Source: Clostridia bacterium (GTDB taxonomy: Bacteria > Bacillota > Clostridia > Christensenellales > Aristaeellaceae). Taken from it: a stretch of DNA of 32,086 nucleotides. The translations under genes and the position numbers were made by a program. Of this stretch, positions 14,905 to 24,598 are shown one piece after another. Position 1 is the first letter of the stretch. Every line of letters begins with the position of its first letter. The stretch is from contig JAGBAV010000122.1 of the NCBI GenBank assembly GCA_017938795.1, positions 1 through 32,086 of the forward strand. The letters are read 5' to 3'. The notes under the pieces were generated by a model. That model saw nothing but the letters and a program-made list of their open reading frames with translations. It ran no database searches and had not been told where the DNA came from.

Positions 14905-15617
14905 ACAGAGAGAGACTGGCCAACGGCCTGACGCAGATGGGCGTCGCCTTCGATCAGACGGCGATGGAGCGCTTTGAGGCCTTCCATGCCATACTGGATG
15001 AATACAACGCGCGGATGGACCTGACCGCCGTCCTTGACGAGGATGAGCGCGTCGACCGCCACGACCTGGACAGCGCCGCGCCGCTGGCGCAGGGGCTGCT
15101 TGTGCCCTCGGCGAAGGTGATCGACGTGGGCACGGGCGCGGGCTTTCCCGGCATGCCGCTGCTCATCCTGCGCCCCGATCTTGAGATGACCTTCCTCGAC
15201 GCGCTGCAAAAGCGCATCGGCTTCCTCACGGACGCACTCTCCCGCCTCGGGCTGAAGGCAACGACCCTCCATGCCCGCGCGGAGGATGCCGCCCGCATGG
15301 AGGCGCACCGCGAGCAATACGACGCCGCGGTCTCCCGCGCCGTGGCGAGCGCCGCCGTGCTGGCGGAGCTGACCCTCCCGTTCGTAAAGACGGGCGGCGC
15401 AGCCATCGCATGGAAGGGTCCCGGCGTGCAGGACGAGCTCACCGCGGCCAAGCGCGCCGCCTTCGTGCTCGGCGGCGCGGTGCGCGGCGTATACCCCGCG
15501 CCCATCCCCGGGCGGGACGACTGGCAGCACATGCTGCTGGTCACCGACAAGACGGGAAAGACCCCCAAGCCCTACCCGCGCAAGGCGGGCACGCCCAGCA
15601 AAAAGCCGCTCGCCTGA
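14901..15617 (+). CDS. rsmG: 16S rRNA (guanine-527-N7) methyltransferase RsmG (GidB)
   Basis: SAM-dependent methyltransferase that makes m7G527 in 16S rRNA. The 238-residue protein carries the SAM-binding motif KVIDVGTGAGFPGMPLLIL (about 73-91), the upstream RHDLDSAAPL segment typical of RsmG, and the SRAVASAAVLAELTLPFVKTGG segment. The start is the ATG overlapping the stop of the preceding gene by four bases (ATGA). It is more often found beside mnmG or parA; here it closes an operon with radC. A bidirectional terminator follows. Confidence 0.95.
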   Translation: MNRERLANGLTQMGVAFDQTAMERFEAFHAILDEYNARMDLTAVLDEDERVDRHDLDSAAPLAQGLLVPSAKVIDVGTGAGFPGMPLLILRPDLEMTFLDALQKRIGFLTDALSRLGLKATTLHARAEDAARMEAHREQYDAAVSRAVASAAVLAELTLPFVKTGGAAIAWKGPGVQDELTAAKRAAFVLGGAVRGVYPAPIPGRDDWQHMLLVTDKTGKTPKPYPRKAGTPSKKPLA

Positions 15618-15641
15618 CCAGCGGCAGCGCCCAAAAGCAAA

Positions 15642-15670
15642 GCAGAGGATCCGCGATCCCCTGCTTTTTT
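15642..15670. terminator. Bidirectional terminator between rsmG and the DAHP synthase gene
   Basis: GCAGAGGATC CGC GATCCCCTGC stem (one mismatch) followed by TTTTTT on the plus strand; on the minus strand GCTTTGCTTTT follows. It serves both convergent genes. Confidence 0.85.
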
Positions 15671-15685
15671 GTGTCCCTCCGGCCC

Positions 15686-16699
15686 TTACTGCATGGCCTT
15701 TCCCTCGAACTCCGCGCGCCTGCGCACATCCTGCATCAGCGCGTCAAACTGATCCGGCCTCAGGCTCTGCGCGCCGTCGCACAGTGCCTTCTGCGGGTCG
15801 TTGTGCACCTCGATCATCAGGCCGTCCGCGCCGGCGGCGATAGCCGTGCGCGCCAGCGGCTCCACCATCCATGCGATGCCCGCCGCATGCGACGGATCCA
15901 CGATCACCGGCAGGTGCGTCTTTGCCTTGATCAGCGGCACGGCGGAGATATCCAGATTGTTGCGGATCATCTTCTCGAATGTGCGGATGCCGCGCTCGCA
16001 GAGGATCACGTTGTCGTTGCCGCCGGCGAGGATGTACTCCGCGCTCATAAACAGCTCCTCCATCGTCGAGGAGAGGCCGCGCTTGAGCAGCACAGGCTTT
16101 TTGCTGTGCCCCAGCTCCTTGAGCAGGCGGAAATTCTGCATATTGCGCGCGCCGACCTGAATGATATCCACATCGGCGAAATCATCCAGCTGCATCTCGC
16201 TCATGATCTCCGTGACAATCGGCAGGCCCGTCACGCGGCGCGCCTCGCGCAGCAGCGCCAGCCCCTGATTCTCCAGCCCCTGGAAGGAATAGGGCGACGT
16301 CCTCGGCTTGAATGCGCCGCCGCGCAGGCAGGTCGCGCCGCTCGCCTTGACGGCCTGCGCCACCCCCAGCAGCTGCGCCTCGCTCTCCACCGAGCAGGGG
16401 CCCGCCATCACCGCGAATGTGCCCTCGCCGATCCTCCTGCCGCACACGTCAATGTGCGTATCGTCCGGATGAAAGCGGCGATTGACCAGCTTGTACGGCT
16501 CGGATATGCGGCGGACATCCGCCACGATATCAATCGCCCGGAGCCAGTCCTCATCCACATGTGTCGTATCGCCGACGAGGCCGAGAATGGTCTCATGCAC
16601 GCCCCGGCTGAAATGGATGGAGACGCCCTTCTCCTCGATCTGCGCAATCAGCTGCTTTATCCGGCCCTCGGCCGTATCCGGTCTCAGAATTACGATCAT
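15686..16699 (-). CDS. aroF: 3-deoxy-7-phosphoheptulonate (DAHP) synthase, type I-beta with N-terminal regulatory domain
   Basis: First enzyme of the shikimate pathway, joining phosphoenolpyruvate and erythrose-4-phosphate. The 337-residue protein has a ferredoxin/ACT-like N-terminal domain (about 1-66), as in Thermotoga DAHP synthase, where it mediates feedback inhibition by tyrosine. The catalytic barrel has AGPCSVES (99-106, metal-binding Cys102), GGAFKPRTSPYSFQG (127-141), KRGLSST and the metal-ligand DPSHAAG. The ATG is preceded by GGAGGG at six bases. The gene is separated from its promoter by a 240-nt leader with a Tyr-rich leader peptide and a terminator, so expression is probably attenuated by charged tRNA-Tyr. 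No other aro gene adjoins it. Confidence 0.96.
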   Translation of the reverse strand: MIVILRPDTAEGRIKQLIAQIEEKGVSIHFSRGVHETILGLVGDTTHVDEDWLRAIDIVADVRRISEPYKLVNRRFHPDDTHIDVCGRRIGEGTFAVMAGPCSVESEAQLLGVAQAVKASGATCLRGGAFKPRTSPYSFQGLENQGLALLREARRVTGLPIVTEIMSEMQLDDFADVDIIQVGARNMQNFRLLKELGHSKKPVLLKRGLSSTMEELFMSAEYILAGGNDNVILCERGIRTFEKMIRNNLDISAVPLIKAKTHLPVIVDPSHAAGIAWMVEPLARTAIAAGADGLMIEVHNDPQKALCDGAQSLRPDQFDALMQDVRRRAEFEGKAMQ

Positions 16700-16776
16700 G
16701 CTGTTCCCTCCGAATTTGACGATTTGTCATGCCCAGCAGGAAATCCCGCTGCATACCAGCAGATAACGGGGCATAG

Positions 16777-16811
16777 GAAAAGCGGCCCTCCCAATGAAGA
16801 AGAGCCGCTTT
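16777..16811 (-). terminator. Attenuator terminator in the DAHP synthase leader
   Basis: A 13-bp stem counting G-U pairs: AAAGCGGC and its extension pair with the mirrored arm ending GCCGCTTT, with a 7-8-base loop and a short TTTT run on the minus strand. It lies 28 bases past the leader-peptide stop and about 80 bases before the structural gene. The U-run is short and partly in the stem. Confidence 0.75.
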
Positions 16812-16839
16812 GACTGGCTTTAATCTGAGCTGAATCCCA

Positions 16840-16914
16840 TCAGACGCCACACAAAGAGCCCGCACTGCGGCGGTAATACAGGGTATTCCTGCCATACGCA
16901 ATGCGAATCCTCAT
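16840..16914 (-). CDS. Tyrosine-rich leader peptide of the DAHP synthase gene (24 aa)
   Basis: A 24-codon frame starts MRIRIAYGRNTLYYRR and ends SLCGV. It has AAAGGAGGA seven bases before its ATG, stronger than many genes here. It has three Tyr codons (7, 13, 14), two in tandem (TAT TAC), and no Trp, Phe or His. It lies between a consensus promoter and a terminator upstream of DAHP synthase. Minus-strand 16861-16852 (GGGCTCTTTG), inside this frame, can pair with 16812-16802 (CAAAGCGGCTC), which includes the terminator's 5' arm, giving an antiterminator of ten pairs with two G-U and one bulge. A ribosome stalled at Tyr13-Tyr14 leaves that segment free; a ribosome at the stop codon covers it. 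This is the layout of ribosome-mediated attenuation. The peptide itself probably has no other role. Confidence 0.8.
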   Translation of the reverse strand: MRIRIAYGRNTLYYRRSAGSLCGV

Positions 16915-16945
16915 GCCGACGTCCTCCTTTGTTTGCTGTGTCATG

Positions 16946-16974
16946 ATCATATCATGCAAATGACACTTTGTCAA
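16946..16974 (-). promoter_or_regulatory. Promoter of the DAHP synthase leader
   Basis: Minus strand: consensus TTGACA (16974-16969), 17-bp spacer, TATGAT (16951-16946) with an extended TGA. The start is predicted near 16939, about 25 bases before the leader-peptide ATG. Confidence 0.85.
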
Positions 16975-16992
16975 CCCCAACATTTACAGAAG

Positions 16993-17694
16993 TCAGACAT
17001 AAAACTCCACCATGTCGTCAAGGCGCAGGCAGGCAAGCCGCCCGCCGGGGAACGCCGCGCCGCAGTCGATGCAGATGCTCTCGCCGCGGCGGAGGATCTC
17101 CGCCTTTCCGCTGAGCGCGAGAGTCGGCGTATGCCCGGTGACGATCAGGGTACGGCCGTCGCCGAAGTATACGCGATCCATATCGTGCCGGTCAAAGATC
17201 AGCTCGTCCGCCGTATAGCTGTCCATCGGGCGCGAAGCGTCAAAGCCGGACAGCCCCGCATGCACGAGGATGAACCTGCGCTCCCCGATATCAACCTGCG
17301 CATACAGGCGGAAGCCGTCCAGATAGTCAAGCATATCCAGCTTGCCGAACATGCTCAGCGCGCGGAACTCCGCCATCGTGCTGCGGCTGCCGTTCATCTG
17401 CCAGTCCATGATCTGGCGCATGAGCGTCATGTCTATATAGGTCTCGCAGTTCTCCGCCGTCACCTCGACCATCAGCTTGCGCAGCAGCACGCGCGCCATC
17501 GCATCGTGATTGCCGAGGATCGGGATCACGTTCGGCCGGCGCGCCATGTCCTGCAGGATGCGCATGGGATGCGGCCCGCGGTCGACCACGTCTCCGAGGA
17601 TATACAGCGTGTCCTCCGCGCCGAAGCCGATCTGCTCCAGCATCGCCCTGTACTTGCCGTATTCGCCGTGCAGATCCGCCATCACATAGATCAT
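16993..17694 (-). CDS. PPP-family metallophosphoesterase (ApaH/PrpE-like)
   Basis: A 233-residue calcineurin-type phosphoesterase. The metal-binding blocks are in order: ADLHGEYGKY (about 6-15), LGDVVDRGPHPMRI (about 33-46), ILGNHDAMAR (about 59-68) and VTGHTPTL near the C terminus. These fit the serine/threonine-phosphatase-like PPP branch. The substrate may be phosphoprotein or a diadenosine polyphosphate; sequence does not decide. An ATG two codons upstream (17700) abuts the GGAGGA, so the ATG at 17694, seven bases from it, is preferred. It lies between the rhamnosidase gene and the DAHP synthase promoter on the same strand, with no clear functional link to either. Confidence 0.9.
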   Translation of the reverse strand: MIYVMADLHGEYGKYRAMLEQIGFGAEDTLYILGDVVDRGPHPMRILQDMARRPNVIPILGNHDAMARVLLRKLMVEVTAENCETYIDMTLMRQIMDWQMNGSRSTMAEFRALSMFGKLDMLDYLDGFRLYAQVDIGERRFILVHAGLSGFDASRPMDSYTADELIFDRHDMDRVYFGDGRTLIVTGHTPTLALSGKAEILRRGESICIDCGAAFPGGRLACLRLDDMVEFYV

Positions 17695-17738
17695 CGGCAT
17701 TCCTCCGCTCTTTTCCCGTATATCCTATATATATCATA

Positions 17739-17784
17739 CTCCGGCGCGGGGCAGGGAGCTTTTCCCTGCAGGCCCGCGCCGGAG
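17739..17784. repeat. 46-bp near-perfect inverted repeat between rhamnosidase and phosphoesterase genes
   Basis: CTCCGGCGCGGG plus GCAGGGA pairs with TCCCTGC plus CCCGCGCCGGAG: a 19-bp stem with one three-base bulge and a five-base loop. No T-run follows on either strand, so it is not a standard intrinsic terminator. It lies 18 bases past the rhamnosidase stop. It may stabilise the 3' end or act with Rho. Confidence 0.7.
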
Positions 17785-17802
17785 CGCATATTCTTTTACC
17801 GT

Positions 17803-20220
17803 TCAGACACGGATGGCGCGCAGCGCAGGCTCCAGATCGAGCACCGCCTGCGGGTTGATATGCCACATGGTGCCCGCCGCCTGCCGGACCGTCATCGAGC
17901 CGTACTCGCCGTCCGGGTCGGACAGCTGCGCATAGAACACCGGCTCCGCCTGCCGGATCAGCTCCGCCGCCTCCCTGTTGGCCATCACATCCATGCACAG
18001 GGAATCGAGGCTGTAGGGATGGAGATAATCGCGCGTCGGCTGATAGGTATAGCTGTAGGAGCCCTCGCTAAGCTCCGCCTCATAGCCCTGCGGGTGATCC
18101 GGCAGGACGAGGTGCGCCGCCGCGCCCTGCGGCACCTGCGCCTCAACATGCAGCAAGCCGTCCTCCTCAATGCGCCACGAGACCGACCACAGGCCCGCCG
18201 GCGAATCAAACCGGATGAACGCATGCCCGAGCCTGCCGTCGATATACGGCGCAATCTGCGCGCGCGTCCAGCCCGGGGCGGCGCAGCGCAGGCCCATGAT
18301 GCGGCTGTAGATCGCCTCGCAAACGCTGCCGTAGGCGTAGTGGTTGAGGCTGTTCATGCCCGTGCCGGAGATGGAGCCGTCGCTCTCCAGGCTGTTCCAA
18401 CGCTCCCAGATGGTGGTCGCGCCGAGGTTCACGCTGTAGAGCCAGCCGGGGAACTGCTCCCTAAGGAGCATGCGGCAGGCCATGTCGCCCATGCCGTTGT
18501 CAAAGAGCACCGGCAGCATCAGCGGCGCGCCGGTGAATCCGCTGCGGATGCGGCACAGATCCAGCCGCAGACGGCGGCGCAGGCCGGCGATCATCTTCTC
18601 CCGGTCGCGGAAGAGGCCGTAGCGCAGGGCGAGCACAAAGCCCGTCTGCGTGTCCATCGTCAGGTTGCCCGCCGGGGAGACATACTCGTCAAGCAGCGCC
18701 GAGCGGATCTGCGCGCCGAACTCTCCGTAGCGCGCGGCGTCCTGCTCATAGCCAAGCTCCGCCGCAGCCTTCGCCGTCAGCTCGATGGAGTGCATACAGT
18801 ACACGCCCTGAATATACGCGTCGTCCGTGCTGCCCTTGAGGGACTGCGGGGTGATGCCGTCCTGCGCGAGCCAGTCGCCATAGGTGAACTGGTCATACAC
18901 CACATGCGTGCCGCCCAGCCGCGCGTCCTCTCGGATCAGATACTCGGCATAGTCGCGCATCATCGGGTAGGTCTCCGCCAGCAGCGCCTTGTCGCCGTAG
19001 TTCATATAGATATCCCACGGGATGATCGTGCCGGCGTCCGCCCAGACAGCGCCGCCGTGATTGCCCGCGCCCTTGAGGCTGGGGCTGTACTGCGGCAAAT
19101 CGCCGCCGCCGTAGAGCACCTGATCCGCGCGCATATCGCGCATATACTTCGTATAGAATGCCTTGCAGTCCATCTGGTAGCACGCCGTATTGACGAACAC
19201 CTGCGTATCCGCCGTCCAGCCAAGCCGCTCGTCGCGCTGGGGGCAGTCCGTCGGCACATCAAGGAAGTTGCTCCTCTGCCCCCACCATGTATTGCGCATC
19301 AGCTGGTTGATCCCGGCATGACCGGTGCCGGCCTCCAGCGTCTGCCTCAGGTCGGAGGAGAGGACGACCGCCGTGTAGTCCCCCGGGGCGACCGCGTCAA
19401 CGCCCTCGACCTTCGCATAGCGGAAGCCGAAGAACGTGAACATCGGCTCCACATCCTTCACCACGCCGTCGGAGGTATAGACAAACTCAGATTTCGCCGT
19501 GCGCAGATTGTCCCGGTAGAAGCTGCCCTGCTGCAGCACCTCGCCCGTCTGGATGCGCATGGTGCGCCCCGCAGGCAGGCGGTTGACAAAGCGGATCACG
19601 CCCGCCATATTCTGCCCGAAGTCGAGCACCTGCTCCCCCTTCGGCGTGATGATGAGCGTCGGCTTCAGCTCGCCTACAGCGCGGATCGGCGGGGAGAACT
19701 GATCCTCAAGGCGATAGTCCGTCTCCGCAGCCACGCAGGGTACGGTCTCGCCCACAGCGCGCGTGTCGTCCCGCGTCTCGCCGTCATAGATGTTGCCGCC
19801 GGTGATGCAGGAGGGCGCGGCCCGCCATGTGCCGTCCGCCGCGATCCGTGTCGCGCTGCCGTCGGCATTCGTGATGGTCAGCTCCGCGGCGAGCAGATAG
19901 CGGCTGCCCCAGCGGCAGGTCTGCCCGCCGTCAAAGCCGAGGCGGCCCATATACCAGCCCTCGCCCATATACACCTCAATGACATTCTCCTGCGCAAGCA
20001 GCTCCGTGACGTCATAGGTCTGCACGCGCAGATATGCATCGTAGTCATTAAAGCCAGGGGTCAGGTAATCGCCGCCCACGCGGCGCCCGTTGATGTATGC
20101 GCGATACAGGCCAAGGCCTGTGATCCTCAGCTCCGCCCGGCAAACGTCCCCACAGGCAAACTGATGCAGGAACCGGGGATGATCGACCGGCGCCGCCGGC
20201 GTGATGAATGTCATGCCCAT
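17803..20220 (-). CDS. Alpha-L-rhamnosidase, GH78 family
   Basis: Removes terminal alpha-L-rhamnose from glycosides or pectin side chains. The 805-residue protein has an N-terminal rhamnosidase beta-sandwich (AYINGRRVGGDYLTPGFNDY), then a (alpha/alpha)6 catalytic barrel with VPTDCPQRDERLGWTADTQV. The acid Glu331 lies in DER, and a second Glu606 in TIWERWNSLESDG matches the proposed base of the family. A C-terminal beta domain follows. No signal peptide is seen, so it acts in the cytoplasm. The start is the ATG at 20220, which has GGAGGATTTGT before it; the frame is open for 37 codons upstream but that part contains the leader hairpin and promoter. It probably feeds rhamnose to the rha genes about 2 kb away. 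Confidence 0.95.
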   Translation of the reverse strand: MGMTFITPAAPVDHPRFLHQFACGDVCRAELRITGLGLYRAYINGRRVGGDYLTPGFNDYDAYLRVQTYDVTELLAQENVIEVYMGEGWYMGRLGFDGGQTCRWGSRYLLAAELTITNADGSATRIAADGTWRAAPSCITGGNIYDGETRDDTRAVGETVPCVAAETDYRLEDQFSPPIRAVGELKPTLIITPKGEQVLDFGQNMAGVIRFVNRLPAGRTMRIQTGEVLQQGSFYRDNLRTAKSEFVYTSDGVVKDVEPMFTFFGFRYAKVEGVDAVAPGDYTAVVLSSDLRQTLEAGTGHAGINQLMRNTWWGQRSNFLDVPTDCPQRDERLGWTADTQVFVNTACYQMDCKAFYTKYMRDMRADQVLYGGGDLPQYSPSLKGAGNHGGAVWADAGTIIPWDIYMNYGDKALLAETYPMMRDYAEYLIREDARLGGTHVVYDQFTYGDWLAQDGITPQSLKGSTDDAYIQGVYCMHSIELTAKAAAELGYEQDAARYGEFGAQIRSALLDEYVSPAGNLTMDTQTGFVLALRYGLFRDREKMIAGLRRRLRLDLCRIRSGFTGAPLMLPVLFDNGMGDMACRMLLREQFPGWLYSVNLGATTIWERWNSLESDGSISGTGMNSLNHYAYGSVCEAIYSRIMGLRCAAPGWTRAQIAPYIDGRLGHAFIRFDSPAGLWSVSWRIEEDGLLHVEAQVPQGAAAHLVLPDHPQGYEAELSEGSYSYTYQPTRDYLHPYSLDSLCMDVMANREAAELIRQAEPVFYAQLSDPDGEYGSMTVRQAAGTMWHINPQAVLDLEPALRAIRV

Positions 20221-20248
20221 ACAAATCCTCCGTATGTCCAAGCCTATG

Positions 20249-20265
20249 CGCGGCATGCAGCCGCG
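20249..20265 (-). repeat. Hairpin in the rhamnosidase leader
   Basis: CGCGGC TGCAT GCCGCG, a 6-bp stem with a five-base loop, near the predicted 5' end of the transcript and about 30 bases before the start codon. Confidence 0.45.
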
Positions 20266-20280
20266 TTTCTTCCTTCCCTC

Positions 20281-20309
20281 ATTGTACCTGATGCCGTCCT
20301 TCGATTCAA
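20281..20309 (-). promoter_or_regulatory. Promoter of the alpha-L-rhamnosidase gene
   Basis: Minus strand: TTGAAT (20309-20304), 17-bp spacer, TACAAT (20286-20281). Its -35 box lies only 15 bp from the -35 box of the divergent degV promoter. Confidence 0.7.
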
Positions 20310-20324
20310 GCTGTACGCTGTTTC

Positions 20325-20353
20325 TTGACAAGATCCCGTTAAGCGTTTATAAT
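20325..20353 (+). promoter_or_regulatory. Promoter of the degV-type gene
   Basis: Perfect consensus: TTGACA (20325-20330), 17-bp spacer, TATAAT (20348-20353). An imperfect palindrome, TTAAGCG...CGTTTAA (20339-20361), overlaps the -10 box and could be an operator. Confidence 0.85.
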
Positions 20354-20442
20354 CCGTTTAAGTTCAATTTGTATACGATCAGCGCATTCATCCGGAGTCA
20401 CGCCGTTTTCTTCCGCGCGCAGCCCCATGAAAGGAACTCATC

Positions 20443-21285
20443 ATGGTTATCATCACCGATTCCGCAGCCGACATGAGCCGCGAGGAGCTGGCGCACTGGC
20501 GCGTCCAGTGCATCCCGACCGGCGTCATCTTCGGCGACGACGAATACATCTCCAGCGACGAGCTGACCGAGGAGGAGCTCTGGCGCCGTTCCTTCGCGGG
20601 CGAGCGCATCCGCACCTCCCAGCCCTCGCCGCAAGCATTCCTGAGCGTCTTTGAATCCGTGAAAGCTGCGGGCGAGACCGCGATCTACATCGGCATCTCC
20701 TCTGCGCTCTCCGGCACGCTGCAGAGCGCGAAGCTCGCCCTGTCCATGCTCGACTACGACGGGATTCACATCGTCGATTCCCTCTGCGGCGCCGCCGCGC
20801 AGAAGCTGCTGGTGCTCTTTGCCTGCCGCCTGCGCGACGAGGGCAGGCTGCTCGCCGCCGAGGCCGCCGCGCGCATTGCATCCATCCGGCACCGCATCCG
20901 CCTCTATGCCAGCCTTGACACGCTGGATAACCTCGCGCGCAGCGGGCGTATCCCCAAGGCCGTCGCCGGCATCGGCTCCCTCGCCCGGCTCAAGCCTTTA
21001 CTTGAGGTCACGCAGGAGGGGCGGATTGCGCTCGCCGGCAAGGCATTCGGCCGCCACCGCGCCATCGAGAGCCTCGCCCAGCGCGTCGCCTCCATGCGCA
21101 TCGACCCGGATCACCCGGTCATCCCGCTTTACTCCCATGCCAGGGACAACTGCCTGTCGCTCATCCGCAAGCTCTCCGAGCGCGGCGTCAGCGTCAATGA
21201 GGAGCTGCTCAGCGCGATCGGCCCGGCCATCGCCGCGCACATCGGGCCGGACGCATACGGCGTCACCTTCGTGGAGGCGGAATAA
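20443..21285 (+). CDS. DegV family fatty-acid-binding protein (FakB-like)
   Basis: A 280-residue cytoplasmic lipid-binding protein. DegV/FakB proteins present fatty acids to the FakA kinase for phosphorylation. Family landmarks are the N-terminal IITDSAADMS, IRTSQPSPQAF near residue 57, YIGISSALSGTLQSAKLAL, IHIVDSLCGAAAQ, and the C-terminal AAHIGPDAYGVTFVE. The ATG follows AAAGGA. No fakA homologue is adjacent. It has a consensus promoter divergent from the rhamnosidase gene and a terminator after it, so it is a single-gene unit. Confidence 0.94.
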   Translation: MVIITDSAADMSREELAHWRVQCIPTGVIFGDDEYISSDELTEEELWRRSFAGERIRTSQPSPQAFLSVFESVKAAGETAIYIGISSALSGTLQSAKLALSMLDYDGIHIVDSLCGAAAQKLLVLFACRLRDEGRLLAAEAAARIASIRHRIRLYASLDTLDNLARSGRIPKAVAGIGSLARLKPLLEVTQEGRIALAGKAFGRHRAIESLAQRVASMRIDPDHPVIPLYSHARDNCLSLIRKLSERGVSVNEELLSAIGPAIAAHIGPDAYGVTFVEAE

Positions 21286-21297
21286 ACCGCATACCAT

Positions 21298-21339
21298 GGA
21301 CGGTATGCCCCGGATACGGGCGCACCGTCCTTTCTTTCT
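21298..21339 (+). terminator. Terminator of the degV-type gene
   Basis: GGACGGTATGCCC pairs with GGGCGCACCGTCC (one mismatch, one G-U) across a seven-base loop, followed by TTTCTTTCT. Confidence 0.75.
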
Positions 21340-21355
21340 GCTCCATACCCTGGTC

Positions 21356-21384
21356 TTGCCCGCACGCATGATCCATGTTATACT
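21356..21384 (+). promoter_or_regulatory. Promoter of the small exported protein gene
   Basis: TTGCCC (21356-21361), 17-bp spacer, TATACT (21379-21384), about 32 bases before the start codon. Confidence 0.65.
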
Positions 21385-21415
21385 GCATGCAGCACTGCAA
21401 AAAGGAGTGACCGCC

Positions 21416-21979
21416 ATGAAGAGAATCGCCGCCCTGCTGCTTACCGTTATCCTCCTCGCCGCCTGTCCGGCGCTGGCGCAGCCTGCCTTTTCCCTGCGCA
21501 GCGGCGTCACATGGGACAGCACCATGATGGATGTCATGCGCATGGAAGGAACGCCCGATTCGGTATCGCAGATGACCTACTCCATCTGCATGTATCTGGA
21601 CGCCGCCGTCAGCAATTACCAGGCGGAGATGGACTATGTCTTCGCCGGTGAGGATCTGGCCGCCGTGCAGTATGTCTTCCGCACGCATGAGGACAGTGCC
21701 TCCCACGCCGGGTACAAGCGCCAGTACATCCGCGGCGCACTGACGCAGAAATACGGAAATCCCGGCACGATCTCCGGCGCGGAGAGCGAGGAGATCATGG
21801 CGCGCATCTATGACTATCCCTTCGATCCGTCGTGGGAGATCGACAACCGCGCCTGCTGGGCGCTGGCAGACGGCACGCGCATCATCTGGTATGAGATGGA
21901 GATCGGCTTCTCCGTCCTGTATGTCAATCCCCTGTTTGATACGCTCACGCCGGCGGAATACAACACCTCCGGTCTGTAA
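21416..21979 (+). CDS. Small exported protein of unknown function, possible lipoprotein
   Basis: A 187-residue protein not recognised as a named family. It starts with a signal peptide (MKRIAALLLTVILLAACPALA). LAAC could be a lipobox, giving a lipoprotein anchored at Cys17; ALA|QP would instead allow ordinary cleavage. The mature part opens FSLRSGVTWDSTMMDVMRMEGTPDSV, which resembles the conserved start of SmpA/BamE-like folds (a G-x-T ... G-x-P pattern), and is rich in aromatic and acidic residues. AAGGAG precedes the ATG, and both a promoter and a strong terminator bracket the gene, so it is a genuine single-gene unit. It is convergent with the rhamnose operon. Confidence 0.8.
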   Translation: MKRIAALLLTVILLAACPALAQPAFSLRSGVTWDSTMMDVMRMEGTPDSVSQMTYSICMYLDAAVSNYQAEMDYVFAGEDLAAVQYVFRTHEDSASHAGYKRQYIRGALTQKYGNPGTISGAESEEIMARIYDYPFDPSWEIDNRACWALADGTRIIWYEMEIGFSVLYVNPLFDTLTPAEYNTSGL

Positions 21980-21997
21980 CCCCAAAAAACAACAGCA

Positions 21998-22024
21998 GCA
22001 GGCTCCCCGCCCGGGGGAGCCTGC
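21998..22024. terminator. Bidirectional terminator at the end of the rhamnose operon
   Basis: GCAGGCTCCCC GCCCG GGGGAGCCTGC, an 11-bp stem. TTCATATTTTT follows on the plus strand and TGCTGTTGTTTTTT on the minus strand. It serves the exported-protein gene and rhaM. Confidence 0.9.
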
Positions 22025-22045
22025 TTCATATTTTTGGTTTAAGGA

Positions 22046-22363
22046 TCAGTCCAGTCTGAACACCGGCTCGAGCTTGGGCTGAGCGCCGGTCACCGGGTCC
22101 ATCTCCAGCTCAAGGATATCAGCCATGTACTCATTCCAGCGGTCGACGATCGGGCTGCCCGCCTGCGTGCGCTCGGCGAACTCAATGCCCTTCTCGCACT
22201 CGTAGTAGCCAAACAGCTCCTCGCCATTGGCGAAGATGGTGTAGTTGCAGATGCCGGCGGACTTGAGCAGCGCCTTCATCTCCGGCCAGATCTCATCATG
22301 GCGGCGGATGTACTCCGCCTTGCAGCCGGGCTTGATGCGGCCCTTCCATGCCATGCGTTCCAT
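22046..22363 (-). CDS. rhaM: L-rhamnose mutarotase
   Basis: Interconverts the alpha and beta anomers of L-rhamnose so that the isomerase is supplied with its preferred form. The 105-residue protein is the usual size (104 in E. coli). Family features are WKGRIKPGCKAEYIRRHDEIWPEM in shortened form (KAEYIRRHDEIWPEM), CNYTIFANGEELFGYYE and a C-terminal MADILE. The catalytic His (RRHDEIWPEM) is present. GGAGGG is six bases before the ATG. It is the last gene of the operon, 49 bp after rhaD, and is followed by a bidirectional terminator. Confidence 0.94.
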   Translation of the reverse strand: MERMAWKGRIKPGCKAEYIRRHDEIWPEMKALLKSAGICNYTIFANGEELFGYYECEKGIEFAERTQAGSPIVDRWNEYMADILELEMDPVTGAQPKLEPVFRLD

Positions 22364-22385
22364 ATGTTTCCCTCCTGATTTCTGT

Positions 22386-22403
22386 CGGCGGCGGACGCCG
22401 CCG
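22386..22403. repeat. Intercistronic hairpin between rhaD and rhaM
   Basis: CGGCGGCG GA CGCCGCCG, a perfect 8-bp inverted repeat with no T-run. Likely an mRNA-stabilising or processing stem. Confidence 0.5.
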
Positions 22404-22412
22404 CGCATCGTC

Positions 22413-23237
22413 TTAGTCGAGGAACTCCTCGCGCAGCTGAACCTTGAAGTCGCGGGCGATCGCCTTGAGCTCGTCGTCGGCGATGGTCTGGATCTCCGGC
22501 AGGCCGGTGGACTTCTGCAGCACCCAGATCTGCGCAGACTTCTCGATCGTATGCATCAGGCCGAACGTGGTGTCAAAATCCGGGCCAGAGACGAACAGGC
22601 CGTGGTGCGCCCAGACAGCCGCCTCGTATTCCTTCATCTTCTCGCAGGTCGCCAGCGCGATCTGCGCGCCGCCCGGCACCATCCACGGCACAACGCCCAC
22701 GCCGCCCGGGAAGACGACCGGGCACTCCGTCGCGCTCTTCCACAGCGCGCGGCTGAAGTCGCGGTCCGTCAGCGGGAGCACATAGGTCATGGCGATGATA
22801 TTCGCCGGGTGCGCATGATAGATCACGCGGCACGCGCCGTCCGTCGCCGCCACGCGCACGGAATGATTCATGAAGTGGCTCGGGAATTCGCTCGTCGGGC
22901 GGCCGCCGTTGACAAGGCCCCAGACGATGCGGTAGCTGTCGCCCTTGTCGTTGATCTCGACCACGCAGAGGCTGTCCGCCGGATCAAGAATCACATTGCG
23001 GAAGTACTTGCCGCTGCCCGTGGACAGGAAGTACTCGCCCGCAAGATTCGCGCCCGTCACGCCCATGTTCACCCACGGGCGCGGGGTCTCGTCGAAGAAG
23101 GGACGCATCTCGTCCACTTCCTCCTTCGTCAGGCGGTAGGTCAGATTGCCGCCGTTGCGCTCATGCCAGCCCTGATGCCAGCCGTCGTCCGCCATGCGGA
23201 TATATCGCTTCATGACCGAAATGTCAAGCATGCCCAT
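22413..23237 (-). CDS. rhaD: Rhamnulose-1-phosphate aldolase
   Basis: Class II zinc aldolase that splits L-rhamnulose-1-phosphate into dihydroxyacetone phosphate and L-lactaldehyde. At 274 residues it equals E. coli RhaD in length. The zinc ligands and catalytic acid fall at the same numbers as known for E. coli: Glu117 (SEF), His141 and His143 (YHAHPAN), and His212 (WAHHGLF). GGNLTYRL near residue 29 is the phosphate-binding start of the family. The ATG has AGGAGG eight bases upstream. It lies between rhaA and rhaM in the operon. Confidence 0.97.
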   Translation of the reverse strand: MGMLDISVMKRYIRMADDGWHQGWHERNGGNLTYRLTKEEVDEMRPFFDETPRPWVNMGVTGANLAGEYFLSTGSGKYFRNVILDPADSLCVVEINDKGDSYRIVWGLVNGGRPTSEFPSHFMNHSVRVAATDGACRVIYHAHPANIIAMTYVLPLTDRDFSRALWKSATECPVVFPGGVGVVPWMVPGGAQIALATCEKMKEYEAAVWAHHGLFVSGPDFDTTFGLMHTIEKSAQIWVLQKSTGLPEIQTIADDELKAIARDFKVQLREEFLD

Positions 23238-23278
23238 TTGTGTGTCCTCCTTCTCAGAGGCATTGCCCCTGAAACCCT

Positions 23279-23300
23279 GCGCAGGGAGCAGTCCCTGCGC
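23279..23300. repeat. Intercistronic hairpin between rhaA and rhaD
   Basis: GCGCAGGGA GCAG TCCCTGCGC, a perfect 9-bp stem with a four-base loop in the 98-bp gap. There is no T-run, so it is probably not a terminator. Confidence 0.55.
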
Positions 23301-23335
23301 CGTTCTTCGCTTTGCGCCAATTCAAGCGGGTCGGC

Positions 23336-24598
23336 TTATGCGCGCTTGAGCAGCACATCCTGCTCGTACTGCTTCACCTTCGGCAGCCACGCGCCGTCCT
23401 CCGGCACGCCGCACTCGCGGCAGTACTGCGCCCAGACCTCGCCGAACGGCAGGGTCTTGATCTCCTCCTGCGCAACCAGCAGGGTGGTGAAGTCGCCGCT
23501 GTCCTGCAGGTCCTTCAGGTACGCATGCGGGGTCACCAGCGCCATCAGCAGCGCCTTCTGCGCATTGCGGATGCCCACCGTCCACGCGGCGACGCGGTTG
23601 ATGGATGCGTCAAAATAGTCAAGCGCGATGTTCACGCTGCCGTCAAGGCCGCCGCAGCGCACGATCTCCTTGCAGATCTCCTTCGTCTCGTCGTCCAGCA
23701 GCACGACATGGTCGCTGTCCCAGCGGACGGGGCGGGTGACGTGCAGCGCAATCTCCGGGAAGAACGCCAGCAGCGCCGGGATCTTGTCGGAGACCATCTC
23801 GGTCGGGTGGTAGTGGCCATTGTCCATGAGCGGGATGCACTTATCCATGTTCATCGCGGCATAGACGAGGGAGAACTCGCTGCTGCCGGCGGTGTACGCC
23901 TCCACGCCGATGCCGAAGACCTTGCTTTCCACACAGGGCTTGACCTTCTTGAAGTCAAACGGCTCGGAGAGGATCTCGTCGATCGCCTCGCGGTAGCGCT
24001 TGCGCGGGCCAAGGCGGTCGGCCGGGATGTCCTTGAAACCGTCGCCCGTCCAGATGTTCATGACGCAGGGCTGGCCCAGCTCCTCAGCCAGATACGTGCT
24101 GATGCGGATGGAAGCCTTGCCGTGCTCAATCCAGAACTTACGGGTCTCCTCATCCGGGGAGGACAGGGTCAGCGGATCGCACTTGGGATGGGAGAAGAAC
24201 GTCGGGTTGAAGTCCGCGCCGATGCCGCGGGACTTGCAGTAGTCCACCCACTGCTTAAAGTGCTTGGGCTCCAGCTTATCGCGGTCGACCCAGCCGCCGT
24301 TCTCCTCGCTAAAGATCGCATAAGAGGCGTGCAGGCTGATCTTCTTCATGCCGGGGCAGAGGGAGAGCACGACGTCAAAGTCGGCCATCAGCTCTTCCGG
24401 CGTGCGGGCGCGGCCCGGGTAGTTGCCGGTGGTCTGGATGCCGCCGGTCAGGGGCTTGCTGGGGTCGGTGTCAAAGCCGCGCACATCGTCGCCCTGCCAG
24501 CAGTGGATAGAGACCGGAACAGTCTTCAGCCTCGCAATGGCCGCCTCCACATCGACGCCCAGCGCCTCGTACTTTGCCTTTGCTTCCATGTAGCTCAT
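23336..24598 (-). CDS. rhaA: L-rhamnose isomerase
   Basis: Metal-dependent isomerase converting L-rhamnose to L-rhamnulose. The 420-residue protein matches the family length (419 in E. coli). Landmarks are the N-terminal VPVSIHCWQGDDVRGF (about 27-42), KISLHASYAIF, DFNPTFFSHPKCD, CVMNIWTGDGFKD, and ALHVTRPVRWDSDHVV, which carry the metal and substrate ligands of this xylose-isomerase-like barrel. The ATG has GGAGG ten bases upstream. It follows rhaB by 18 bp and is therefore co-transcribed. Confidence 0.97.
   Translation of the reverse strand: MSYMEAKAKYEALGVDVEAAIARLKTVPVSIHCWQGDDVRGFDTDPSKPLTGGIQTTGNYPGRARTPEELMADFDVVLSLCPGMKKISLHASYAIFSEENGGWVDRDKLEPKHFKQWVDYCKSRGIGADFNPTFFSHPKCDPLTLSSPDEETRKFWIEHGKASIRISTYLAEELGQPCVMNIWTGDGFKDIPADRLGPRKRYREAIDEILSEPFDFKKVKPCVESKVFGIGVEAYTAGSSEFSLVYAAMNMDKCIPLMDNGHYHPTEMVSDKIPALLAFFPEIALHVTRPVRWDSDHVVLLDDETKEICKEIVRCGGLDGSVNIALDYFDASINRVAAWTVGIRNAQKALLMALVTPHAYLKDLQDSGDFTTLLVAQEEIKTLPFGEVWAQYCRECGVPEDGAWLPKVKQYEQDVLLKRA

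Follow-up and report, generated by a model that had tools for sequence, protein, structure and literature searches.

The DAHP synthase gene of the window, which denotes here the whole analysed stretch of 32,086 nucleotides, is very probably controlled by a ribosome-mediated transcription attenuator. The evidence for this reading comes from the arrangement of the leader upstream of the gene, from the fixed position of a tyrosine codon in relatives, from alternative hairpins common to aligned leaders, and from computed folding, in which the position of a ribosome on the leader decides between opposite structures.

Organization of the leader

A preliminary description of this DNA, made from its letters, had placed before the gene a consensus promoter, a short frame with tyrosine codons, a 13-bp terminator and a pairing that would compete with this terminator. 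All of these elements were recovered one by one, and all lie on the minus strand. The promoter matches the consensus at 11 of 12 positions (TTGACA at 16974-16969, a 17-base spacer and TATGAT at 16951-16946). Three promoter-like sites were observed in 15500-17800 vs 0.8 in shuffles, and several relatives have, as judged by eye, similar promoter hexamers at the same place. The leader frame of 24 codons starts with ATG at 16914-16912, ends with a stop codon at 16842-16840, follows the Shine-Dalgarno (SD) sequence GGAGG, and contains tyrosine at codons 7, 13 and 14 but neither phenylalanine nor tryptophan. The terminator arms (16810-16798 and 16792-16780) form 13 pairs, followed by a short T run (16781-16778). 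Segment 2 (16861-16852) can form ten pairs with segment 3 (16812-16802), two of them G-U, with C16807 bulged. The preliminary description lacked one further hairpin, 1:2, formed by 16882-16876 with 16865-16859, which a stalled ribosome would break. As in the classical scheme, segment 2 and the 3' strand of this hairpin have bases in common. None of 200 dinucleotide shuffles folds as well as the leader RNA of the window (z -4.1). The features of the locus are as follows:

16961-16973, minus strand: operator-like inverted repeat TGACAAAGTGTCA over the -35 element (repeat search)
16946-16974, minus strand: predicted promoter of the leader transcript, TTGACA-17-TATGAT, with TG before the -10 element (sequence)
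16923-16927, minus strand: predicted ribosome-binding site GGAGG of the leader frame (sequence)
16840-16914, minus strand: predicted leader peptide frame of 24 codons, MRIRIAYGRNTLYYRRSAGSLCGV, with tyrosine at codons 7, 13 and 14 (sequence and relatives)
16876-16882, minus strand: segment 1 (CCTGTAT), 5' strand of the 1:2 hairpin (alignment and folding)
16873-16878, minus strand: tandem tyrosine codons 13-14, predicted stall site (alignment and folding)
16859-16865, minus strand: 3' strand of the 1:2 hairpin, GTGCGGG (alignment and folding)
16852-16861, minus strand: segment 2, predicted antiterminator strand GGGCTCTTTG (sequence, pair scan and folding)
16802-16812, minus strand: segment 3, antiterminator partner of segment 2 or 5' arm of the terminator
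16798-16810, minus strand: terminator 5' arm (terminator finder; covariation among relatives)
16780-16792, minus strand: terminator 3' arm (segment 4), followed by the T run to 16778
16717-16729, minus strand: second operator-like repeat TGACAAATCGTCA, between the terminator and the gene (repeat search)
15686-16699, minus strand: DAHP synthase (3-deoxy-7-phosphoheptulonate synthase) with an N-terminal ferredoxin-like domain (family search)

Three tyrosine codons among 24 are a weak signal by themselves: the frame reaches 0.12 on the Tyr/Phe scale, below all thresholds used, the leader is among the Tyr/Phe-poorest of its family, and its tyrosine content alone would not exceed chance. It is therefore the relatives that decide, and conservation that lifts the frame above chance. 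The SD sequence and this conservation together suggest that the frame is translated.

The protein encoded downstream matches PF18152 and PF00793 (DAHP synthase with ferredoxin-like domain), and its nearest solved chains are 1rzm and 3pg9. The preliminary description had also proposed that tyrosine acts twice, on the leader and on the enzyme. The N-terminal domain that this requires is present (PF18152); inhibition by tyrosine would hold for the window enzyme by analogy with its relatives 1rzm and 3pg9, whose regulation we presume to be of this kind. Elsewhere in the window, at 17803-24598, lies a cluster for rhamnose use that has no evident connection with the attenuator; its genes encode alpha-L-rhamnosidase, class II aldolase and L-rhamnose isomerase.

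Conservation of the leader and its tyrosine codons

Orthologues were collected by a DAHP-synthase search of 100 related genomes and from named genome contigs (best 80 kept). Among 29 genomes of the same genus, including that of the window, 17 hold an orthologue with upstream DNA, and the leader is present in 12 of these 17 (L009-L016, L019, L021, L023 and L024). The five genomes lacking it (L017, L018, L020, L022 and L030) form one clade with 100/100 support in a tree of 106 DAHP synthases, beside leader-bearing relatives, so that a single loss suffices to account for them. Over the whole 106-protein tree, leader presence changes often, with 29 changes vs a shuffled mean of 35. Four more leaders were found outside the genus (L025, L026, L207 and L208), in three genomes of the same family (G053, G132 and G156) and one of another family (G081).

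An in-frame tyrosine codon occupies the predicted stall site in all 16 leaders, comprising that of the window, 11 more of the genus and four beyond it; leader-bearing relatives without tyrosine there, which the preliminary description had named as evidence against its reading, were not encountered. All 14 aligned leaders (L019 and L026 were added by hand) have the TAT of codon 13 in frame and at a single column of the alignment, and tyrosine is also present in L207 and L208, which were left unaligned. On average, the 16 leaders contain 3.56 tyrosine, 1.50 phenylalanine and 0.06 tryptophan residues per 24.3 residues. Phenylalanine codons occur in 12 of the 16; the four leaders free of them are L009, L021, L023 and L026, and the leader of the window is among these. 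The proposed specificity for tyrosine is thus supported by the codon fixed at the stall site but qualified by the frequent presence of phenylalanine, and tyrosine-only sensing suits some members better than others. Many relatives have a similar C-terminal end of the leader (TGCLRC-A); the leaders vary in their N-terminal sequence and in how many tyrosines they contain. The frames of L014 and L023 terminate upstream of segment 2, whose nucleotides are still kept; this indicates that selection there acts on the RNA and not on the peptide.

Alternative hairpins in 14 aligned leaders

The 1:2 hairpin, the antiterminator 2:3 and the terminator 3:4 form one layout common to the 14 aligned leaders. 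RNAalifold, applied to these rows unprompted, returned the 1:2 hairpin (CCUGU with ACGGG) and the terminator. For the 14 pairs of these two structures, 91.8% of cells in the alignment can pair, a value reached by 0 of 500 shuffles, and versions slid along the alignment stay below 46%. Three terminator pairs show changes on both sides, and variation in the 1:2 stem is confined to one side. For the 2:3 pairing, 87.9% of cells pair vs at most 64.2% when slid. In a blind scan of 4807 pairs of scanning windows, leader against terminator arms, the top-ranking combination joined segment 2 to the 5' arm of the terminator (97% paired), and at least six of seven 2:3 pairs were kept in 14 of 14 rows, so the alternative pairing predicted from one sequence is retained throughout the aligned relatives. 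The expectation that both alternative stems would covary was borne out for the terminator but not for the antiterminator, whose covariation across the 14 aligned rows did not exceed that of shuffles (164 of 500 reach it) because both of its strands hardly vary. Taken together, sequence and comparison support the predicted promoter, the frame, the conserved tyrosine position, the hairpins and their layout as established parts of this leader.

Computed folding and ribosome position

Folding was computed for the 14 leaders on the transcript as it stands before the terminator 3' arm exists, and was expressed as the expected number of the eight 2:3 pairs. Leaders without a ribosome formed a mean of 3.08 pairs. 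Covering the transcript all the way to a ribosome placed at the conserved tyrosine codon raised the mean to 7.59, and each of the 14 leaders then formed more pairs than in the free state. A footprint of just 27 bases at the same codon gave a mean of 5.06, with at least four pairs in 10 of 14; 2:3 was above the free state in 12 leaders and above the stop-codon state in 13, and it did not form in L010, L013, L016 and L023. A footprint at the stop codon reduced the mean to 1.13, and at least four pairs remained in only one of the 14 leaders (L019, 6.94). Covering the start region gave a mean of 6.35 and at least four pairs in 11 of 14, hence the tyrosine codon is not the sole antiterminating position. 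In the window, the values were 6.03 for the free leader, 6.25 and 6.87 for footprints at Tyr13 and Tyr14, and 0.01 for the stop codon; its leader is one of five in which 2:3 is mostly formed already without a ribosome.

The dependence of 2:3 on ribosome position is thus a computed property of these leaders, and its firmest part is that 2:3 is lost when the ribosome terminates and can form when the ribosome is held farther upstream, at tyrosine or earlier. The opposite effects of a stalled and a terminating ribosome, which the preliminary description had deduced from distances, were therefore reproduced by computation, with 2:3 formed for the tyrosine codon in 10 of 14 or 14 of 14 leaders, depending on how much RNA is covered, and for the stop codon in one of 14. 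When codons are classed by whether a footprint on them would antiterminate, 34 of 47 tyrosine codons qualify, compared with 12 of 22 phenylalanine codons and 109 of 258 codons other than these two; the rows are related, so that the P value of 2e-4 is not independent and the comparison is descriptive. All three tyrosine codons of the window sit where a footprint would antiterminate.

These results fit a mechanism in which RNA polymerase would transcribe the leader during translation of the 24-codon frame by a ribosome. With ample charged tRNA-Tyr, the ribosome would reach the stop codon and cover part of segment 2, and the terminator 3:4 would then form ahead of the DAHP synthase gene. Under a shortage of tyrosine, the ribosome would stall at Tyr13 or Tyr14 and hold 1:2 open; segment 2, left free, would pair with segment 3, the terminator would be blocked and DAHP synthase would be transcribed. 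We infer that translation, stalling, termination and a response to tyrosine occur in this manner in the cell.

A second DAHP synthase with a phenylalanine-rich leader

The genome encodes a second DAHP synthase (G000:C7; L241:2564-9740, L119), which has its own Phe-rich leader, MFVFSFARFSGYGFMGCGLAFVRA, and terminator. It is followed on the same strand by tyrA, aroB, aroA, aroC, a gene for chorismate mutase-prephenate dehydratase (pheA) and one for shikimate kinase (aroK), and this aroF-tyrA-aroB-aroA-aroC-pheA-aroK cluster probably forms one operon. Leaders of the Phe-rich type precede all 19 other same-genus copies of the second isozyme with enough upstream DNA. Across 19 of these leaders, a count that includes the genome's own and leaves out L134, whose leader was missed by a pattern, the means are 4.79 phenylalanine and 1.89 tyrosine, with L142 (four tyrosine, two phenylalanine) as an exception. 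The stretch ARFSGY...GLAFVRA of this leader is strongly conserved. RNAalifold returned for it a 20-pair hairpin inside the frame and a terminator, with changes on both sides in 11 of 31 pairs, and the best partner in a pair scan was the terminator 3' arm. Anthranilate synthase (PF04715) was not found in the genome, which is 79% complete, so there is no tryptophan leader for comparison.

Distribution of tyrosine/phenylalanine leaders

A Tyr/Phe-rich frame behind an SD sequence, with a score of at least 3, was detected in 80 of 161 distinct upstream regions of DAHP synthases, compared with 1.7 per set in dinucleotide shuffles and none on the reverse strand. These regions remained after seven duplicates and three short regions were dropped; they were chosen by protein closeness and 36 come from the genus of the window, so the sample is uneven. 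When all 190 pairs of amino acids were ranked in the same way, Phe+Tyr came first with 82, followed by Ala+Phe with 69. A hairpin with a T run, identified with our own finder, follows all 80 positive leaders. The same finder applied to the 300 bases before other frames gave 0 of 170 at a score of at least 3; these control frames, of at least 150 codons with an SD sequence, were taken mechanically from both strands of 103 of the same loci, and some may not be genes. Among the regions from named contigs (best 80 kept, 73 distinct), 30 were positive, and the positive records include Lachnospiraceae, Gemmiger, Clostridium methylpentosum, Tissierellia and Gracilibacter. In the terminator set, L046 was dropped because of its weak terminator, and L009, L021 and L024, which were under the threshold or too short, were added by hand. 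Across 92 loci drawn from the whole set, with the terminators of six loci re-found using a stricter start, leaders were no more complementary to the 5' arm of the terminator than their shuffled versions (mean z -0.19; 6.5% at P<0.05), and the alternative pairing is accordingly demonstrated only for the clade of the window.

A covariance model built from the 14 rows matched 69 of 300 genomes of the family at E 0.01, and its 15 hits of at least 75 bits all lie at DAHP synthase. Those of the weak hits (at most 38 bits) that were read, L209-L230, were considered as further copies of the leader and rejected, since they proved to be other leaders, mere terminators or coding DNA. Candidate Phe/Tyr-rich frames with similar terminators stand before genes for ABC substrate-binding proteins in other genera of the family (L213, L216, L218, L219, L222 and L223); the protein of L216, the one of these put through a family search, matches PF04392 and scores under the cut-off of the TrpX model (222.9 of 390). 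In L212, a Phe-rich frame and terminator precede a CoA ligase gene resembling phenylacetate-CoA ligase, under the cut-off of the PaaK model. In L209 and L210, genes for MetN-like ABC ATPases are preceded by leader frames rich in Met and Cys (of the MYTRFAMRMSMCASVLSCCLCCAA kind), which have a GTGCTGTTTGTGYTGCGCC stretch in common with the segment 2 region of the tyrosine leaders; the L209 protein contains ABC and NIL domains and falls under the cut-off of the MetN model.

T-boxes, operator-like repeats and alternative explanations

The genome contains 14 T-box matches, three of them over the cut-off. The genes behind them, read from translations, appear mostly to be leuA-, leuC- and acetolactate synthase-like genes and tRNA synthetase genes (Leu, Cys, Met, Ser, Ile, Ala, Thr and Gly), and three could not be read. 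The genome also encodes two TrpR-family (YerC) proteins (L242 and L243), one of whose genes adjoins a hisZ-like gene. That T-boxes exist in the genome is what could favour a T-box or other riboswitch reading tyrosine or tRNA directly, an explanation that is almost certainly wrong for this locus, given that no T-box match lies at either DAHP synthase. RF00230 is not matched in the window, in agreement with the preliminary description, which had seen no T-box sequence; the Rfam scan of the window returned no match at gathering score and no leader family, and over 16690-17000 it gave only two sub-threshold matches, to unrelated families. It is also most improbable that the terminator merely ends the transcript of the upstream phosphoesterase gene, with the short frame accidental and DAHP synthase transcribed from another promoter. 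Such an arrangement would agree with the unremarkable tyrosine content of the window and with the phosphoesterase gene itself, which is on the same strand and ends at 16993. However, the consensus promoter is located after that gene, and 15 other leaders, of which 13 are aligned, repeat the frame, the tyrosine position and segments 1, 2 and 3.

Also very unlikely is an arrest peptide, which from within the ribosome tunnel would respond to free tyrosine or a different ligand instead of charged tRNA. The similar TGCLRC-A ends and the conserved stretch in the leader of the second isozyme would suit it, but the frames of L014 and L023 stop before the conserved stretch while its nucleotides are kept, the conserved stretch of the second leader is itself a hairpin with changes on both sides, and neither the N-terminal sequence nor the number of tyrosines is constant. 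Somewhat less improbable, though still unlikely, is that control lies with a DNA-binding protein acting at the paired TGACAAANNGTCA repeats and the leader adds little. Exact copies of TGACAAANNGTCA number seven in the 2.87 Mb genome (one for a control pattern), and four of these lie at the two DAHP-synthase loci, two at each, where they flank the leader (G000:C7:14629-14641 and 14916-14928 for the second isozyme). Near-gene copies with at most two mismatches occur in 9 of 14 sequences of the window's clade vs 0.013 expected per sequence, and in none of the five leaderless relatives. Half of the promoter repeat is, however, the -35 consensus itself, few near-gene copies accompany the second isozyme (3 of 20), and the frame and hairpins of the leader would go unexplained. 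A regulator could coexist with attenuation, and a putative one at TGACAAANNGTCA may act beside the attenuator, which we retain as the explanation of the leader.

Comparison with known systems

In the trp, phe and his attenuators of enterobacteria, tandem regulatory codons, 1:2, 2:3 and 3:4 hairpins and a terminator precede the first gene. The leader of the window has the same layout and differs in its codons and genes. Closer in gene is the uORFC-13-1 motif upstream of aroF in Acholeplasma, for which uORF attenuation has been proposed (PMC8632094). It likewise has a promoter, a ribosome-binding site and a short frame followed by a terminator upstream of DAHP synthase, but it uses phenylalanine (a run of U) and is confined to Acholeplasma and environmental sequences, with 24 representatives (PMC8632094). 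Compared by description, the window's clade differs from it in having tyrosine at a fixed stall site and the 1:2/2:3/3:4 layout, and belongs to another bacterial group. Two candidate Phe/Tyr uORFs at shikimate genes, found from a set of five genomes that includes Clostridium novyi, are similar to our leaders in that frames encoding these residues precede genes of the shikimate pathway (PMC6429828); for both, the available part of this source names no gene, genome, stall or antiterminator logic, and they may be of the same kind as the Clostridia leaders described here. Attenuators with histidine leader peptides in Bacillota (PMC2965389 and PMC9413887) resemble the present case in that Gram-positive bacteria use a leader peptide for attenuation although they also have T-boxes, and differ in serving histidine genes. 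In the open literature, among the matches listed and as far as their available parts go, no tyrosine leader before DAHP synthase in Clostridia was found beyond PMC8632094 and PMC6429828. The earlier Phe/Tyr uORFs and the histidine attenuation of Bacillota mean that the mechanism itself is not new. The tyrosine-fixed layout, the division of tyrosine and phenylalanine between the isozymes and the distribution across Clostridia were not found in the open literature among the matches listed.

A generalization to Clostridia, to which we give somewhat less than even chances, is that leader-peptide attenuators, and not T-boxes, are a common control of phenylalanine and tyrosine supply. Within one genome, tyrosine would then serve for the stand-alone DAHP synthase and phenylalanine for the shikimate-pathway cluster, further Phe/Tyr leaders would precede aromatic transporters, and a DNA-binding regulator at TGACAAANNGTCA would be layered on. 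T-boxes are the textbook control of amino-acid genes in Bacillota. Here, one genome has T-box matches before apparent Leu, Ile, Met, Cys, Ser, Ala, Thr and Gly genes and predicted translated leaders before both DAHP synthases, so that the choice between these two means of sensing tRNA charging becomes testable within a single genome. In E. coli, isozyme-specific control by tyrosine and phenylalanine is exerted via a repressor, and the pair formed by a tyrosine leader and a Phe-rich leader would reproduce this isozyme-specific control with RNA.
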